The notes below the pieces were generated by a model, which saw only the letters and a program-made list of their open reading frames with translations, did no database searches and was not told where the DNA came from. 64,000 nt of DNA from Desulfosediminicola ganghwensis. Lineage in GTDB: Bacteria; Desulfobacterota; Desulfobulbia; Desulfobulbales; Desulfocapsaceae. The position numbers were made by a program, and so were the translations under genes. Location: contig NZ_CP050699.1 of NCBI RefSeq assembly GCF_005116675.2, positions 2,193,001-2,257,000 on the forward strand. The letters are read 5' to 3'. Shown piece by piece: positions 2,592 to 8,981 of this stretch (within the stretch, counting starts at the first letter, position 1; each line of letters begins with the position of its first letter).

Positions 2592-2716
2592 TTTGGGCAT
2601 ATGTGAGCACTTCTCAATGCGGGCAGCTTATGCTGTCTGCTAGAGGTGCTTGAATATGGCCCCTTACGACATGCACATCGCGCCAATCTCCGGGCGGTGT
2701 GTCAGGAGATGCTGTT

Positions 2717-3874
2717 ATGTCAAATATAAAGATGTTTCGTACCACCGAGCGCCTGGTCATGGGAGCCGGTGCAATCAATAATATCGTTCAGGAAATAGCC
2801 GCTCTGGGGGGCAGCAAACCGATGATCGTCACTGATCCCGGCCTGGTGGCCACAGGCATCATCGAGCGCCTGGAGGAACTCCTGAGTGAAGGAGGGTTGC
2901 AATGTGCCAGATTCGACAAGGTCGAGGCTGATCCCCGTTATGAACTGGTCAATGAAGTCGTGCAGCTGGTACAGGCAGAAGGTGTTGACTGCATTATCGG
3001 TATCGGTGGCGGCTCTTCCCTGGATATCGCCAAAATCGTTGCGGTAATGGTCAACAACCCAGGCAGCGTGGCAGAATATTTCGGTATCGATCTGGTGAAA
3101 AAGCCTGGTCTGCCCATGGTGCTGATTCCGACCACTGCCGGCACCGGCAGCGAGGTTACCCCGATCGTCATTTTGTCCGATCATCAAGAAAAACTGAAGA
3201 AAGGAGTGGTCAGCTCACATCTCTTTCCTGATTGCGCGCTGCTCGATGCGGAGTTGACGGTCGGTCTGCCGCCTGCGGTGACCGCTGCCACCGGCATGGA
3301 TGCGCTTATTCACGCCATGGAAGCCTATACCTCGATCAACGCCAACTCAACCACGGATATGCTGGCAGTCAAGGCGATGGAGCTGATTTTCGATAATATC
3401 AGGACAGCTTACGCCAACGGGCAGGACATCGAGGCGCGAGAGAAGATGCTCGAGGGCAGCATGCTTGCCGGCATGGCCTTTGCCAATGCCGGGGTGACCG
3501 CCGTTCATGCCTTTGCCTATCCGATAGGTGCAGAGTTCCATATTCCCCATGGTATCGCCAACACCATCATGCTGACACCGGTGATGGAGTTCAATCTCAT
3601 AGGAAATATAGAGAAATTTGCTGAAATTGCGAAAATTTTCGGGGAAGGCGAAAAGGGCATGAGCCAGCGAAAGCTGGCAGAACTCGGAGTGGCTGCAGTC
3701 AAACAGCTGGCGGATGACCTCAATGTACCCCAAAACCTTACTGCGTATGGGGTGAAGGACGAGGATATACCGGGTTTGGCGGAAGGAGTGATGAAGGTTA
3801 CACGCCTTTTAGCCAATAATCCGAGGACGCTTCAGCAGGAAGATGCTGAAAACATCTATCGGCGTGTTCTTTAG
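2717..3874 (+). CDS. Iron-containing alcohol dehydrogenase
   Basis: 385 residues, the usual length for group III (Fe-ADH) alcohol dehydrogenases that interconvert primary alcohols and aldehydes with NAD(H). Seen in the sequence: the dinucleotide signature GIGGGSSLDIAK, the PTTAGTGSEVTP motif, and the metal-ligand segments GMDALIHAMEAY and AVHAFAYPIGAEFHIPHG, which supply the Asp and three His. I chose ATG 2717 over the upstream in-frame GTG 2699 because AGGAG (2704-2708) lies about 8 bases before 2717 and would otherwise be inside the gene. It is 15 bases upstream of the aldehyde:ferredoxin oxidoreductase, so the pair probably carries out alcohol to aldehyde to acid. The substrate cannot be read from the sequence. 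Confidence 0.9.
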   Translation: MSNIKMFRTTERLVMGAGAINNIVQEIAALGGSKPMIVTDPGLVATGIIERLEELLSEGGLQCARFDKVEADPRYELVNEVVQLVQAEGVDCIIGIGGGSSLDIAKIVAVMVNNPGSVAEYFGIDLVKKPGLPMVLIPTTAGTGSEVTPIVILSDHQEKLKKGVVSSHLFPDCALLDAELTVGLPPAVTAATGMDALIHAMEAYTSINANSTTDMLAVKAMELIFDNIRTAYANGQDIEAREKMLEGSMLAGMAFANAGVTAVHAFAYPIGAEFHIPHGIANTIMLTPVMEFNLIGNIEKFAEIAKIFGEGEKGMSQRKLAELGVAAVKQLADDLNVPQNLTAYGVKDEDIPGLAEGVMKVTRLLANNPRTLQQEDAENIYRRVL

Positions 3875-3889: not shown

Positions 3890-5665
3890 GTGTACGGATT
3901 CTATAATAAACTTTTGAAAATAGATGTTACTGATAACAGCTTTGAGTCAATTGAAATCACAGATGAACTGCTGCGTGAGCAAATGGGTGGCAAGGGTTTG
4001 GCCAGTCACCTGTTGATGCAGCTCAACCCCCCGGGGGTGGATCCTCTGGGGCCTGATAACCACCTTATTTTCTCTGTCGGGCCTGTGGCGGCGACACGGG
4101 TCTGGGGTTCCTGCCGGTACGGGGTGTTCACCAAATCCCCCCAGACCGGTTTCTATGCAGAGTCCTACTCCGGTGGAACCGTGGCCGAATACATCGCCGC
4201 GACCGGCTACGACGCCATTGTTTTCCATGGGCGCTCAGAAGAGCTGGTGTGGGTGGAAGTATCGGATGACACCGTGCGGTTCCATTCGGCGGAGCAGCTG
4301 CGTGGCCTGGACACCTATGCCACCGAGGACCGAATCAAACAGTGGATTTCCGCTAACAGACCGGAGACACCAAAATGCGGGGTGTCGGTGGTGGGTCCGG
4401 CCGCCGAGAACGGGGTGACGTTTGCCTTGATTGAAAACGACTACTGGCGATCTGCGGGACGAACCGGCGCCGGCGCCGTGCTGGGTGCCAAAAACATCAA
4501 GGCCATCGCTTTTCACGGCAGGCAGAAAGCCGAGGTGGCTGATCCTAAACTGGTGGCCGCATTTGCCCGGGAGTTGTCGGAAAGAAGCAAGACCGACAAT
4601 GGGGTGAAGGCGTATAAAAAGCTCGGCACCCCAATGATGGTCGACGTGCTCAATGAGGCCCGGGCATTTCCGACCAGGTACTGGTCGAAAGGGCAGAGCG
4701 AACATCGGGAAAATATCAACGCCACCGCCTTGCATGAGCGGTGCGAGGTCAGACCCAATGCCTGCAGAAAATGTTTCATGGCCTGCGGGCGCCTGTCGAC
4801 GGTCAAGAGCGGGAAACATCAAGGCCTGACCGTCGAAGGACCGGAGTACGAGACCATTTACGCCTTTGGTGGCCTCTGCGAAGTGGATAACATTGAGGAT
4901 ATCCTCTATCTCAACGACCTCTGCGACCGGTTGGGTATGGACACCATCACCGCAGGTAATTTGGTGGGGTTGGCCATTGAAGCCGTGCTTCAGGGTCGTA
5001 TCGAGCTGGATCTGAGCTATGGAGATACCGAGGCAATTGCCCGACTCTTGCGGGACATTGCCTATCGGCAGGGCTATGGCGATGTGTTGGCCGATGGCAT
5101 CAAGGTGGCTGCGGAGCAGTGGGACATGGTGGATCAAGCAATCCATGTCAAGGGACTGGAACCGGCCGGGTACGACCCGAGGGTTCTGAAAGGTATGGGG
5201 CTTGCCTACGGCACCTCCGCCCGTGGCGCCTGTCATCTGCGGGCGACCTTCTATAAACCGGAAATTACCGGAATGAGCGACCCCGAGAAAATTCAGGGCA
5301 AGTCTGAGATGTTCGTTGAATGGGAAGACCGGCTCACCTTTTTTGATACGCTGATTCTCTGTCGATTCTACCGCGACATGTACCAGTGGCAGGAGTTGGC
5401 CACCATGGTAAAAGGAGTAACCGGTCTTGATCTAAGTGAACAAGCCATGGTAGCTATTTCAAGACGTATCACTGATAACACCAGGTTGTTCAATATCCGT
5501 GAGGGATTGACCGTTGAGGATGATAGACTGCCCAAGCGGTTTGCCAGAGAGGTCTTGCCTGAATCTGGCCGGGTGATCTCTGAGGAAAATATGACCATTC
5601 TTCTGGGGAATTACTACAAAACCAGGGGCTGGGACGAGGAAGGTATACCGGTGCCTAAAGGTTAG
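3890..5665 (+). CDS. Aldehyde:ferredoxin oxidoreductase (tungsten/molybdopterin)
   Basis: 591 residues, full length for the AOR family, which oxidises aldehydes to carboxylic acids at a bis-pterin tungsten or molybdenum centre and passes electrons through a [4Fe-4S] cluster to ferredoxin. The cluster ligands are visible as C292-x2-C295-x3-C299 (CRKCFMAC) and C491 (LILCRFYRD), matching the spacing in characterised archaeal AOR. The N-terminal domain (about 1-210), the central cofactor-binding region with GTSARGACHLR, and the C-terminal helical domain are all present. The start is GTG 3890 with GGAGG 5-9 bases upstream. Tungsten use is likely but not provable from sequence. It lies in an operon after Fe-ADH and before a selenoprotein gene. 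Confidence 0.93.
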   Translation: MYGFYNKLLKIDVTDNSFESIEITDELLREQMGGKGLASHLLMQLNPPGVDPLGPDNHLIFSVGPVAATRVWGSCRYGVFTKSPQTGFYAESYSGGTVAEYIAATGYDAIVFHGRSEELVWVEVSDDTVRFHSAEQLRGLDTYATEDRIKQWISANRPETPKCGVSVVGPAAENGVTFALIENDYWRSAGRTGAGAVLGAKNIKAIAFHGRQKAEVADPKLVAAFARELSERSKTDNGVKAYKKLGTPMMVDVLNEARAFPTRYWSKGQSEHRENINATALHERCEVRPNACRKCFMACGRLSTVKSGKHQGLTVEGPEYETIYAFGGLCEVDNIEDILYLNDLCDRLGMDTITAGNLVGLAIEAVLQGRIELDLSYGDTEAIARLLRDIAYRQGYGDVLADGIKVAAEQWDMVDQAIHVKGLEPAGYDPRVLKGMGLAYGTSARGACHLRATFYKPEITGMSDPEKIQGKSEMFVEWEDRLTFFDTLILCRFYRDMYQWQELATMVKGVTGLDLSEQAMVAISRRITDNTRLFNIREGLTVEDDRLPKRFAREVLPESGRVISEENMTILLGNYYKTRGWDEEGIPVPKG

Positions 5666-5701
5666 AACGAAATCGAGATACAGAGTGACTCGTGGAGTTG
5701 T

Positions 5702-5727
5702 GGTGGTGCCCTGTTTAGGGCGCCACC
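5702..5727 (+). terminator. Hairpin between AOR and the selenoprotein gene
   Basis: GGTGGTGCCCT, a four-base loop GTTT, then AGGGCGCCACC give an 11-bp stem with one G-T pair. No T-tract follows, so it may be an mRNA-stability or partial-termination element and not a classical terminator. Confidence 0.4.
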
Positions 5728-5759
5728 TGGCTCGGGGGTACATAACCGCTGGAGTGAGA

Positions 5760-6074
5760 ATGTTTGTTGTATCACCGGAAGCACTGGAATACGTAAAAAA
5801 GAAAGGAAGCGATATAACTGTTTGGCTTGAATTTACTCATTCGGCAGGTGGCTGATGTGGTGGAAGGCAGGTTATTGCCTGCACCCCGGCGGTTCGCTTG
5901 GGAAAACCTTCATGCCCGGAGAAGTATCAAAGTACGGTTCTTGAGGATGTTACTATATGGTTTGGTGACAATATTAAACCCGAAAAGGAATATGCAGTTA
6001 TATCTCTGAAAAAGTTATGGTTCCTAAAAGAGCTGGTAGTCGATGGCGTACAATCGTTTGTCCGGCATGACTGA
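5760..6074 (+). CDS. Selenoprotein, CC/Se-motif type (Sec at codon 32)
   Basis: Read through the in-frame TGA at 5853-5855, ATG 5760 gives 104 residues up to the TGA at 6072-6074. The residue order around the UGA is GG-Sec-CGG, the arrangement of the CC/Se motif (seleno)protein family, where Cys-containing members carry CC. A GGAG lies 6 bases before the ATG. The N-terminus MFVVSPEALEYVKKKGSDI resembles the first helix of HesB/IscA-like proteins, and two further Cys occur at codons 41 and 52. Protein-like composition continues on both sides of the UGA (for example EKEYAVISLKKLWFLKEL), which argues against a plain stop. A SECIS-like hairpin starts 3 bases after the TGT codon. The function is unknown; a redox or metal role next to AOR is inference. 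SelA, SelB and SelC are not in this window. Confidence 0.75.
5853..5890 (+). promoter_or_regulatory. Bacterial SECIS-like element after the UGA
   Basis: Directly downstream of TGA 5853-5855 the RNA can fold as a lower stem GGUG (5859-5862) with CACC (5882-5885), an internal loop GAA/UG, an upper stem GGCA (5866-5869) with UGCC (5876-5879), and an apical loop GGUUAU. An apical GGU and a small bulge are the features SelB recognises in the E. coli fdhF element, and the distance from the UGA is in the expected range. An alternative register pairs GCAGG (5867-5871) with CCTGC (5878-5882). Confidence 0.6.
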
Positions 6075-6162
6075 TACCTGTTGCCGGGGCCAATTTATAA
6101 CCACCCTCGCAGATGTTTTGTAAATGGCATACCCACCCAACGCGTTACACACTATACGCGGT

Positions 6163-6238
6163 GCCGGGATAGCTCAGTCGGTAGGGCAACGGCTTGAAAA
6201 TCCGTGTGTCCCTGGTTCGATTCCTGGTCTCGGCACCA
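6163..6238 (+). tRNA. tRNA-Phe (GAA), with two stem mismatches
   Basis: A 76-base cloverleaf with encoded CCA. The acceptor arms GCCGGGA and TCTCGGC pair over 7 bp (one G-U). The D arm, anticodon loop TTGAAAA (anticodon GAA at 34-36), variable loop GTGTC and T loop TTCGATT match bacterial tRNA-Phe. Two pairs are broken: C31-U39 at the loop end of the anticodon stem and U51-U63 in the T stem, and U12-G23 is a wobble. It could be a functional but diverged gene. It lies 88 bases after the selenoprotein stop and is followed by a strong terminator. Confidence 0.9.
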
Positions 6239-6247
6239 TTTAGATAG

Positions 6248-6284
6248 AAAGCCCTTTCAGCAACATGCTGGAAGGGCTTTTTTC
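6248..6284 (+). terminator. Rho-independent terminator after tRNA-Phe
   Basis: AAAGCCCTTTCAGC and GCTGGAAGGGCTTT pair around the loop AACAT with one mismatch, and the 3' arm runs into TTTTTT. It starts about 10 bases after the tRNA CCA. Confidence 0.9.
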
Positions 6285-6758
6285 GTTTCCTGAATTTGTC
6301 CGGTCGTGTTTGCGGACGTTTTTCAATTGCCTGCAGTTATCGTGTGTCGCTCATTGGGTAGGATAATCCTTGGCGGCAATGATGGGGGAGATTCGTTCAC
6401 GTGTTTGCGCATCTGCTTTTATTGCGTCAGAGTATATCTCTATTCAGTCCGAGCTTTGAAGATCCTATAACCTACCCCAGCCGAAATTATTTAATATCAG
6501 AGGAATGACCTACACTGTCGTGAATCTTATACATTGCCTAACGCCTTGTTGTTCTTGATCGCTAACGGCGCTGCCAAAGATAAGCAGGAAACACGTTAAC
6601 TTCAAGAGGAAGACAACATGGATAACCTTCGGTTTGGCAATAAAAAATTCAATGCTCACAATCCAGCGTTACGGTTGAGGTTACCAAATAATTCACGTAT
6701 GTCGTATCTGGCAGAAACATACCTCGACAATAGCCCATAAAAATCATCGTACATCGCG
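6285..6758. other. Gene-free gap carrying repeat copy A
   Basis: No supported gene. It holds one copy of a dispersed repeat (about 6362-6521; partner at 14494-14657). An AAGAGGAAG before the ATG at 6618 looks like a ribosome site, but the frame that follows has only about 40 codons and nothing recognisable. Confidence 0.5.
6362..6521 (+). repeat. Dispersed intergenic repeat, copy A
   Basis: Aligns by eye with 14494-14657 in the same orientation. The core 6391-6456 is the best conserved part, including the shared string ATCTGCTTTTATTGCGTCAG. Both copies end a short common reading frame (RSRV..SAFIASE.ISIQSEL) at the same TGA, with differences at synonymous and non-synonymous positions. It may be the remnant of a mobile element or an intergenic repeat family. 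Confidence 0.65.
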
Positions 6759-8981
6759 TCACCACTTCAAAACATCCCGAAGAATAGACCACCGGGGTAA
6801 TTTATCACGCTTCATCGCATCACCCAACATCCAGTGGTTATATAGTGCATCAACCACTCCGTACGATTTCTCGTTGAGCAGCCAGGCGTTTATTGCCAGA
6901 AGCAACTGTTTATTGTCACGGGCAACAGCATAAACAACGGGTTCTCTGATTACAGGTTTAGGTACTACAAGAGTAAAGGCCGGGTAAAGCAATGTCACAG
7001 CAGCACCTTCCTCAGCTAAATCCAGTATTGCATCAACACTATCGAGATTGTTTTCAAGCATCCTCACCTGTTCTTCTCTATTCTGAATGGGCACAATTGT
7101 TGCCTTTGGCAGGGCCATTGAAAGCTTGGATAAGTTGCTGATGTTATTTTCAACAGCCACAGTGAAAGACTCTTTTTTAAGTAATATCTCTTGCCAGTTC
7201 AGGTAATCATTTCTGTTATGATCTCGTACAATCAGGCCCAAAGATGAGACATAAACTGTCGATGTCAATGAAAATTGATTTGTTTTTTGCCAGGAAACGG
7301 ACACACTCCGTGTATATACGTCACATGCACTATTATTAAGGAACTGTGCTGCTTCTTGTTCTGATTCGGTTGCTATAAACTCGAGAGGCAAGCCAAATTT
7401 CTTTGCAAGCCTGTGCGCCATCTCAATATCAAAACCTACGAGTTGAGAGCGATTCTCATCCGTGAAAAACGATGAAGGATATTCGTCAGGTTGAAAACAC
7501 ACTCTCAACACCCCTCTTTCAACTATCTGCTCAGAATTTGCTGGTTTTGCATCTGTTTCAGTGACACCACCGTCATGGTCGTATCTGATAGTGAACGGTT
7601 GAGGAGTACCCCAAAATTGCATACTCTGCAGGGCTTTGTCCTTGGTATAATGAACAACAATAAAGGTAGAATATAACCAGCGAACTCCGAGTAAGATTGC
7701 AGTAATGAGCAAGATACTTATGACAGTCACCTGTACAAGCTGGCGCCAGTTGAAATAGGTTCTTCGTAACAACAGCATGGTACCGATCAAACCAATTGTT
7801 GCATATTGCATCGCAGATAACAGCGTTCCAAAACGTGAGGTTATTACATCAACAGAGACGAAGACCTGAAAAAGATCTGCGGGGAGATGCATGAGGTCCA
7901 GCAAAAACGGTATAGTCTTTATTGTGCCAGCAAACAAAGCGGGTACTCCGGCAGCAAAGAGCAGAGGATAGGAAGATGCAGAAACCTCCGAACCGATATA
8001 CCACCCACCGAAAAGAAGAAATGATAGTGAGAGTACCCCCATGACACTGGGGAAAGTATAAAAGGTCGGGATTAAGACTTCGACCGATGAATCAGCATCA
8101 TCCGGCGAAACTGATGGTAATTCGGCCGCATTGATAATTTTTTTACACTGCTCTATGAGCTGAGGTAACACAATTAGAGAACTCCCGGTTGCAAAAGCAG
8201 TGATTAAAGGAGTTCGCAGTTCGGAGATGATTCGTCGATAACGAAAGGGTGTAAAAACTGTAATCAGTCCAGGTAAAACAAAGAGGGCCAGAATGAGGCA
8301 AATTGCTGAGTAAATAACAACATACACCTGCAGTCGAGCAAAGTCCGCTACATCCGTTGTTCCTGCCATATCTGCCATAAGTGCAAATACGCCTATCGGA
8401 CTGAGTTTTGAAATAATGGAGGTGATCTTCATGGTAGCCTGTTGAATCAACGTCAGGGGCTCCAGTACCTTTATTTTCTGTGAAAGTCCAATAAGAGCAA
8501 TACCAAGCAAAATACTAAAGATAACAATGGCAGGAACAGCACCTTCGGCATAGGAGCTAAAAGGGTTTGAGGGAATGAAAAGTCGCTGGAAATCAAATGG
8601 AACTGGCTCAGTAATTTGACTTGTACTGAAAAACGACGATGTAATCCAGGAAGGAAATGCTATTGGAATGAGTATCACCAATGAAACCGCTATCGCCCAG
8701 ATAACGAGCAGGATGCTTCCACCCTTGATAGCCAGAGATTTCACCTCCTCATAGTGGAGAGATCCTATTCCGGTGATCAATGCCAGAGAAATGTAAGGGA
8801 TTACTGTGATCTGTAATAATTGAATAAAAACTTCACCTACAATTTTCAACCACCCCACTTGTTCACCAAAAAATAGACCAGTGATAATACCCAAAAAGAC
8901 GCTGAGTAAAACCTGTTCGGGCAGACCAAAGCGAAGGGTGGCAGAGGGGGGGGGAGTTGGCGGCATATTGGAATTACTCAT
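6759..8981 (-). CDS. Dicarboxylate/amino-acid:cation symporter (SDF/DAACS) fused to a periplasmic binding domain
   Basis: 740 residues in two parts. Residues about 10-440 are a sodium/proton:dicarboxylate symporter (GltP/DctA type) with eight or more membrane segments, including the reentrant region ITAFATGSSLIVLPQ, which corresponds to the serine-rich motif. Residues about 480-725 are a family 3 solute-binding domain (VLRVCFQPDEYPSSFF, GFDIEMAHRLAKKFGLPLEF, CDVYTRSVS, a second lobe after residue 600), here tethered to the membrane. Free symporters of this family have about 420 residues, so the C-terminal domain is an extra module that may deliver or sense substrate. It is transcribed alone; the chaA gene upstream ends 215 bases away on the same strand. 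SD AAGGGA lies about 10 bases before the ATG. Confidence 0.85.
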   Translation of the reverse strand: MSNSNMPPTPPPSATLRFGLPEQVLLSVFLGIITGLFFGEQVGWLKIVGEVFIQLLQITVIPYISLALITGIGSLHYEEVKSLAIKGGSILLVIWAIAVSLVILIPIAFPSWITSSFFSTSQITEPVPFDFQRLFIPSNPFSSYAEGAVPAIVIFSILLGIALIGLSQKIKVLEPLTLIQQATMKITSIISKLSPIGVFALMADMAGTTDVADFARLQVYVVIYSAICLILALFVLPGLITVFTPFRYRRIISELRTPLITAFATGSSLIVLPQLIEQCKKIINAAELPSVSPDDADSSVEVLIPTFYTFPSVMGVLSLSFLLFGGWYIGSEVSASSYPLLFAAGVPALFAGTIKTIPFLLDLMHLPADLFQVFVSVDVITSRFGTLLSAMQYATIGLIGTMLLLRRTYFNWRQLVQVTVISILLITAILLGVRWLYSTFIVVHYTKDKALQSMQFWGTPQPFTIRYDHDGGVTETDAKPANSEQIVERGVLRVCFQPDEYPSSFFTDENRSQLVGFDIEMAHRLAKKFGLPLEFIATESEQEAAQFLNNSACDVYTRSVSVSWQKTNQFSLTSTVYVSSLGLIVRDHNRNDYLNWQEILLKKESFTVAVENNISNLSKLSMALPKATIVPIQNREEQVRMLENNLDSVDAILDLAEEGAAVTLLYPAFTLVVPKPVIREPVVYAVARDNKQLLLAINAWLLNEKSYGVVDALYNHWMLGDAMKRDKLPRWSILRDVLKW

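Follow-up and report, generated by a model that had tools for sequence, protein, structure and literature searches.

Does the plus-strand frame at positions 5760–6074 of the window, that is, of the whole 64,000-nucleotide stretch of Desulfosediminicola ganghwensis DNA analyzed here, encode one protein read through an in-frame TGA, and what kind of protein would it be? The frame contains 105 codons: 31 sense codons from the ATG, a TGA at 5853–5855, 72 sense codons and the final TGA at 6072–6074. The product thus comprises 104 residues and a TGA stop. A Shine-Dalgarno-like GGAG (5751–5754, plus strand) lies 5 nt upstream of the ATG. The initial annotation had described this frame with its ribosome site and the GG-U-CGG context of the inner TGA, and all of this can be read directly from the DNA. 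With the TGA (plus strand, residue 32) translated as selenocysteine, the product is MFVVSPEALEYV...SAGG-U-CGGRQV.... The next codon, TGT (5856–5858, plus strand), encodes Cys33, the vicinal partner of Sec32; in seven sister genes a second TGA stands there.

Read-through frame and family assignment

The frame had been proposed to be a hidden selenoprotein gene of the CC/Se motif family, and both parts of this proposal hold. The family profile NF041239 (Moor_selen_rel) matches the read-through protein across the TGA with 63.5 bits (E 1.4e-17; curated cut-off 40 bits), covering residues 3–97 of the protein and positions 4–91 of the 91 positions of the model, and tRNA-Sec and SelB are encoded in the genome (see below). 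When the whole 5.65 Mb genome was searched with the same profile, the locus 5760–6074 was the sole match, with one TGA inside. Homologs aligning across the TGA, named beforehand as one of two tests on which the proposal would stand or fall, were found, and the Sec column is aligned in them. On both sides of the TGA dN was lower than dS in all ten pairs of relatives tested, several of them saturated; for the pair L088/L094, dS downstream of the TGA was 0.21 and dN was 0.01. Given the NF041239 match, the homologs across the TGA and the purifying selection on both sides of it, the region 5760–6074 forms a single gene in which UGA 5853 is read as selenocysteine, and both the gene and its selenocysteine are well supported. 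Gene finders that halt at the first TGA would truncate CC/Se genes.

In the table of 119 selenoprotein families in the 2026 review PMC13188914, CC/Se is listed as a hypothetical protein with one Sec and the motif CxxU. The window protein shares with NF041239 the near full-model match, Sec at the conserved GGU position and the length of about 104 aa. It differs from the entry, as far as the table describes it, by the adjacent U-C pair and by an extra codon stretch before the SECIS element, and the sister group differs by its U-U pair. Across the literature searched, the accession NF041239 occurred only in PMC13188914, and the excerpts of PMC5029168 and PMC2398784 contain nothing on the CC/Se family.

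SECIS element

A SECIS-like hairpin with an apical GGU had been noted, with no coordinates given. It corresponds to a conserved, covarying hairpin at 5884–5902 (plus strand) that has its apical GGU at 5891–5893 and lies within the codons for TPAVRLG. The codon stretch of the family, TPAVRxGKP, has the folding pattern ACCC.[GU]GCGGUNCGC..GGG. The hairpin was compared in 16 sequences, 11 of them obtained by protein-profile searches and five (L085, L087, L089, L092, L098) by the DNA-pattern scan described below only; the scan fixes part of the stem, and for its five loci only the free SECIS columns count. The hairpin folds with the same G-U-N loop in all 16 sequences. In this set (14 distinct sequences) 89.8% of cells are paired, compared with 82.1% in shuffles and 33–63% when the pairing is slid, and none of 500 shuffles reached the observed pairing or covariation score. 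Columns 6 and 16, the pair fixed by no search, form U-A in eight, G-C in five and G-U in one of the 14 distinct rows, with no broken pair. Columns 7 and 15 vary as G-C, G-U and A-U; columns 5 and 17 fail to pair in 10 of the 14 rows, among them the window. Neither doubly changed pairs nor further pair types were notably numerous, their counts being reached in 144 and 62 of 500 shuffles, respectively.

Two other lines of evidence were set aside. A generic fold of 5853–5910 had no unusual stability (z −1.05; 26 of 200 shuffles were equally good), so stability alone is no proof and, not being significant, was rejected as evidence for the SECIS. Synonymous recoding of the SECIS codons is suggestive at best: of 2000 trials each, 108 gave an equally stable hairpin for the window, 6 for L100, 40 for L095, 11 for L085 and 181 for L096, recoding having covered these five sequences. 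The case for the SECIS draws on conservation and covariation in place of these two lines.

The excerpted rules of PMC13188914 for bacterial SECIS elements include an apical loop of 3–9 nt with an upper stem of 4–16 bp, a G among the first two loop positions, a UGA-to-loop distance of 16–37 nt and an MFE of −7.5 kcal/mol or lower. The window hairpin has a 3-nt loop and a 4-bp upper stem, followed by one mismatch and three more pairs, within the first rule. G occupies loop position 1 in all 16 sequences, the base being fixed by the pattern for the five pattern-only loci. The UGA-to-loop distance in the window is 36 nt. The MFE of the window element is −9.0, and 15 of the 16 elements are within the energy rule, L096 with −7.0 being 0.5 kcal/mol short. 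The hairpin at 5884–5902 is the SECIS of UGA 5853 and agrees with all four of these excerpted rules.

A second hairpin at 5867–5882 (plus strand; GCAGGU/GCCUGC) was rejected as the SECIS since it has no conserved apical G. It is an accessory hairpin of the spacer. Such a stem can form in the eight long-spacer U-C genes, with pairing in 87.5% of cells and not one doubly changed pair; in the window it is slipped, the stem of the other long-spacer relatives lying about one codon away. The spacer stem may shorten or set the effective distance between the UGA and the SECIS.

Family members and their distribution

In a sample of the phylum, the family was found in 13 of 395 genomes, with 15 matches, 10 of them over the cut-off. 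Twelve of these matches contain one TGA, one contains two, and two contain none. Sec or Cys occupies the motif position in 14 of the 15 aligned members; the exception, L041, which is below the cut-off, has Ser. L041 and L040 (Cys-Cys) are the TGA-free members; both score below the cut-off and form long branches of unsure placement. Among 257 genomes of the class, 10 have the family (six over the cut-off), three with one TGA, the window included, and seven with two. No family member was found in the three genomes of the same genus that were searched.

A DNA-level scan of 84,980 species, each represented by one genome, then looked for TGATG followed by the conserved SECIS codons at 10–31 nt. Since the scan demands TGATG and exact SECIS codons, it is silent on forms with Cys-Cys and passes over less strictly conserved relatives, L059 for one. 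It yielded 17 matches, of which 14 are real: seven U-U and seven U-C genes. The U-U genes are the same seven as in the class search, and all come from MAGs; the U-C genes include those of Desulfoluna limicola (complete genome) and Desulforhopalus sp. IMCC35007. The remaining matches, in Frankia (L090), Planctomycetota (L091) and Serratia (L097), are chance matches whose frames have no family sequence. A protein-based scan of the same species-wide contigs confirmed none of 132 pattern-matching stretches.

Predicted fold

The family pattern (strand, helix, GG-C/U, VDGVxVYxxPGL, A-C-S-F) resembles that of IscA, and this likeness prompted a test of the fold, which had not been seen in the initial annotation. 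AlphaFold models were built with 15 aligned sequences: that of the window protein has a pLDDT of 87.3, that of the U-U protein L095 one of 86.5. Termini aside, the window model is least certain in the Sec-bearing loop (pLDDT 59). The models were compared with 350,542 PDB chains by Foldseek. For the window model, ranks 1–5 and 7–9 are IscA, SufA, AQ_1857 and HI1723, rank 6 is a YneR complex, rank 10 is an unrelated protein, and rank 11 is DsrR. For L095, ranks 1–9 all belong to IscA/SufA or to the AQ_1857/HI1723/YneR/DsrR set, whose members we take to share the IscA fold. Thus all of the first nine hits of L095 and all but one of the first 11 of the window model are IscA-like structures. The best E-values were 8.5e-3 and 1.2e-3, respectively, none reaching 1e-3, and the IscA-like hits had TM-scores by query length of 0.36–0.59 (window) and 0.39–0.50 (L095) with identities of 5–16%.

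Profile comparison by hhalign points to the same relationship. The profile of 27 CC/Se sequences (26 kept) was aligned with that of 21 PF01521 matches from 14 of the 19 genomes searched with probability 93.3 and score 43.8; controls gave at most 18.9 in 200 column permutations and 14.8 for the reversed profile. With the Sec column masked the probability was 89.4, and with both motif columns masked, 82.0. Against the seven IscA-type rows alone it was 80.8, and against the ten Sec-containing HesB-like rows alone, 44.1. The alignment places the CC/Se Sec column on the IscA/HesB Cys column. In the model, the loop following the second strand carries Sec32, and there it occupies the position that IscA fills with its first cluster-ligand cysteine and HesB-like selenoproteins with their Sec; its column is that of the first ligand Cys/Sec in IscA/HesB-type proteins.

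Sequence searches gave less. Even at a limit of E 10, none of the 15 members matched any Pfam family, PF01521 included, or the NCBIfam model TIGR01911, and a sequence-profile search of the PDB found no IscA chain. As neither the Pfam nor the NCBIfam HesB models match, the protein is not filed as a PF01521 member. A carnitine acetyltransferase match (E 0.99) from a sequence search for distant kin was discarded as chance. From the models and the profile comparison, the CC/Se family probably has the HesB/IscA fold of A-type iron-sulfur carriers, for which the support is fair. This family, so far hypothetical, would thereby gain a probable fold and testable chemistry, with Sec as a cluster or metal ligand.

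The window protein shares with the A-type carriers IscA, SufA and ErpA (PF01521) the predicted fold and the first-ligand position; it differs from them in lacking a Pfam match and the C-terminal C-x-C and in having Sec in place of Cys. We take the ligands of IscA to be three cysteines, one internal and two in a C-x-C near the C terminus. The internal position is kept as Sec in the window protein and the C-terminal C-x-C is absent, so an IscA-type [2Fe-2S] site cannot be assumed. The HesB-like selenoproteins of TIGR01911 (UxGP motif) are likewise small Sec proteins of a related fold with GG-U at the aligned place; the window family differs from them by the absence of GP after Sec and of the Cys-rich tail. 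Ten of the 21 PF01521 matches in the relatives (L109, L110, L112, L114, L116–L121) resemble HesB-like selenoproteins, each with a single in-frame TGA in the motif G-G-U-[SA]-G-P.

Tandem TGA codons in the sister group

The seven two-TGA genes have GGC TGA TGA in place of the GGC TGA TGT of the window. After the pair, the frame is open for 69–76 codons in all seven, and the other two frames close after 2–49 codons. Four of the seven end in TGA, and hence TGA is still a stop there. SelA is present in all seven genomes. Given the open frame, dN<dS in the pairs tested and SelA in all seven genomes, Sec-Sec is the natural reading of the tandem TGA TGA, predicted from the gene sequences. The SECIS loop begins 24 nt after the first UGA and 21 nt after the second, which places one SECIS within range of both.

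In a maximum-likelihood tree (28 proteins), one supported group of eight (97/95) unites the seven U-U genes with L087. U-U may have arisen once, the U-U genes standing on a single side of a branch in 28% of bootstrap trees. L087 (3702–3992 in its contig) is a U-C gene with a short spacer like that of the U-U genes, and is possibly an intermediate or a reversal. Near four Sec-Sec genes there is a kinase/phosphatase-like gene (labeled by eye), which may only reflect relatedness.

We consider it fairly likely that the A-type carrier fold has a second selenium branch, the CC/Se family, and that one lineage of this family decodes adjacent UGAs as Sec-Sec via a single SECIS. If so, a single bacterial SECIS/SelB complex would work in two consecutive elongation cycles, and an iron-sulfur-carrier fold would hold a vicinal diselenol (or diselenide) as a ligand. 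The tandem-UGA group would be a natural system in which to ask whether two UGAs in a row can share one bacterial SECIS, a question that bears on the release and reloading of SelB. The table of 119 families in PMC13188914 has no U-U motif, some of its entries giving no motif at all. A literature search on tandem, consecutive or adjacent UGA or Sec retrieved no report of such a case among the matches listed, and the excerpts of PMC12013277 and PMC9312934 contain no tandem Sec-Sec case, the latter having only UxxU motifs. The novelty of U-U is provisional.

Possible function

Inspection of the alignment by eye links the motif with the C terminus. In the branch of the window, Cys or Sec follows Sec in 16 of 16 sequences (11 of 11 when the five TGATG-pattern loci are left out), and a Cys near the C terminus occurs in two of 16 (L093, L101). 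In the other main branch (10 tree rows), the C-terminal Cys is present in all 10 and a Cys after Sec in one (L031). The vicinal pair seems to have replaced the distant C-terminal ligand, which hints at a redox switch or at the binding of a soft metal or cluster. A vicinal Cys/Sec pair is shared, according to the table in PMC13188914, by the CU-motif selenoproteins of metal chemistry SaoL, SaoC, HgcA and MbdU; theirs is C-U, not U-C or U-U, and they are other families, set apart here by the table description only.

Our preferred reading, in which we have moderate confidence, is that of a divergent carrier-like selenoprotein with a soft metal or cluster bound via the vicinal Sec-Cys pair, the function being inferred. 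UGA 5853 is read as Sec with the help of the SECIS apical loop 36 nt downstream and of the tRNA-Sec and SelB of the genome. The Sec-Cys pair, or Sec-Sec in the sister group, would bind a soft metal or an iron-sulfur/selenium species, standing in for the C-terminal cysteine that the other main branch keeps. The protein would then serve a metalloenzyme as carrier, scaffold or redox switch, a role unlike that of classical thioredoxin-like oxidoreductases. For the proteins of the window and of Desulforhopalus sp. IMCC35007, the likely client would be the upstream aldehyde ferredoxin oxidoreductase (AOR); in other genomes the client must differ or lie elsewhere in the genome.

A plain redox selenoprotein, in which Sec-Cys cycles between selenenyl sulfide and selenol and reduces a small molecule or a protein with no metal involved, is a possible but rather unlikely alternative. 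A vicinal U-C pair is redox-competent in principle, and most uncharacterized prokaryotic selenoproteins are likely redox proteins according to an excerpt of PMC13188914; however, the predicted fold is not thioredoxin-like, the nearest solved structures are iron-sulfur carriers, and the Sec position coincides with that of a cluster ligand.

Gene neighborhood

The selenoprotein gene is preceded, all on the plus strand, by genes for a permease with weak similarity to xanthine/uracil permeases, below the cut-off (434–1876), a protein with weak NERD (nuclease-related) similarity, also below the cut-off (1881–2591), an iron-containing alcohol dehydrogenase (2699–3874) and an aldehyde ferredoxin oxidoreductase with AFOR_N and AFOR_C domains (3890–5665). 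Aldehyde ferredoxin oxidoreductase is an Fe-S and W/Mo enzyme. The same order of five genes was found in two of 23 regions, those of the window and of Desulforhopalus sp. IMCC35007, some regions ending at contig ends; identities to the IMCC35007 proteins are 78%, 31%, 63% and 64%, respectively. Around the U-C gene of Desulfoluna limicola, the 8 kb examined contain no AOR cluster.

The initial annotation had linked the function to AOR or to metal/sulfur chemistry. The second link gains from the HesB/IscA fold. The first, seen in two of 23 regions, is weak, and is a local arrangement rather than a family rule. A narrower form of the preferred reading, compatible with it, makes the protein a dedicated AOR maturation factor, with the AOR operon as the true functional unit. 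This we regard as improbable. It draws on the five-gene order kept in IMCC35007 with 31–78% identity of the four neighbors and on the gap of 94 nt between the AOR and selenoprotein genes in the window, but no AOR cluster was seen in the other 21 regions, several of which end at contig ends, or in five further loci. Moreover, the three genomes of the same genus, in which the selenoprotein family alone was searched, have no selenoprotein of this family.

Selenocysteine decoding machinery and the TGATG string

A search of the genome for selA, selB and selC had been suggested, their absence being the other condition named as counting against the proposal. The latter two are present: tRNA-Sec scores 75.4 bits (Rfam threshold 47) and SelB 384.7 bits (curated cut-off 242.25). 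For SelA, TIGR00474 gave no match and PF03841 two weak ones (E 0.24 and 5), and for SepSecS there was one match below the cut-off (E 0.94). In the same-genus genomes G001 and G002, selA adjoins a gene of 722–732 aa. A strong match to this gene was found in the genome of the window and in G003, where the DNA on its selA side reads N. Since this DNA is masked, the absence of SelA from the genome is not established, and the loss of SelA or its replacement by SepSecS, at first suspected, was dropped. A family search alone would wrongly imply that selA is missing. N stretches occur in some genomes of the genus, one of them at the selA place of relatives. Overall, 15 of the 19 genomes searched, the genome of the window included, have a SelA match, 13 of them over the cut-off, and SelA is over the cut-off in all ten tested genomes carrying the nearest homologs of the window protein.

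A decayed gene that yields only a 31-residue peptide after loss of Sec decoding would account for the lack of SelA and SepSecS matches over the cut-off in the genome copy searched, but with the selA place of two same-genus relatives reading N in that copy, SelB and tRNA-Sec well over their thresholds and both the SECIS and the frame of the gene intact, this explanation is highly improbable. Least credible of all, with hardly any probability left to it, is a true stop with a coupled start, in which TGATG ends the 31-codon peptide and opens a new frame: TGATG, a known stop-start coupling motif, is present in all 16 aligned genes (the search pattern demanded it for five), and L085 has, by chance, 69 open codons in frame +1, but the frame from the ATG of TGATG closes after 2–51 codons and frame +1 after 2–69, neither consistently, whereas frame 0 after the TGA pair is open for 67–76 codons in 16 of 16 genes with dN<dS in ten of ten pairs, and the NF041239 profile spans the TGA.

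A consensus scan of 5600–6400 detected no promoter-like or terminator-like site, which says little. Downstream of the selenoprotein gene by 88 nt, a tRNA-Phe (gaa) is encoded at 6163–6238 on the plus strand. Farther on, at 6759–8981 of the minus strand, a 740-aa protein combines a sodium:dicarboxylate symporter domain (SDF) with a family 3 solute-binding domain (SBP_bac_3), and looks like an unusual fusion of a transporter and a binding protein.
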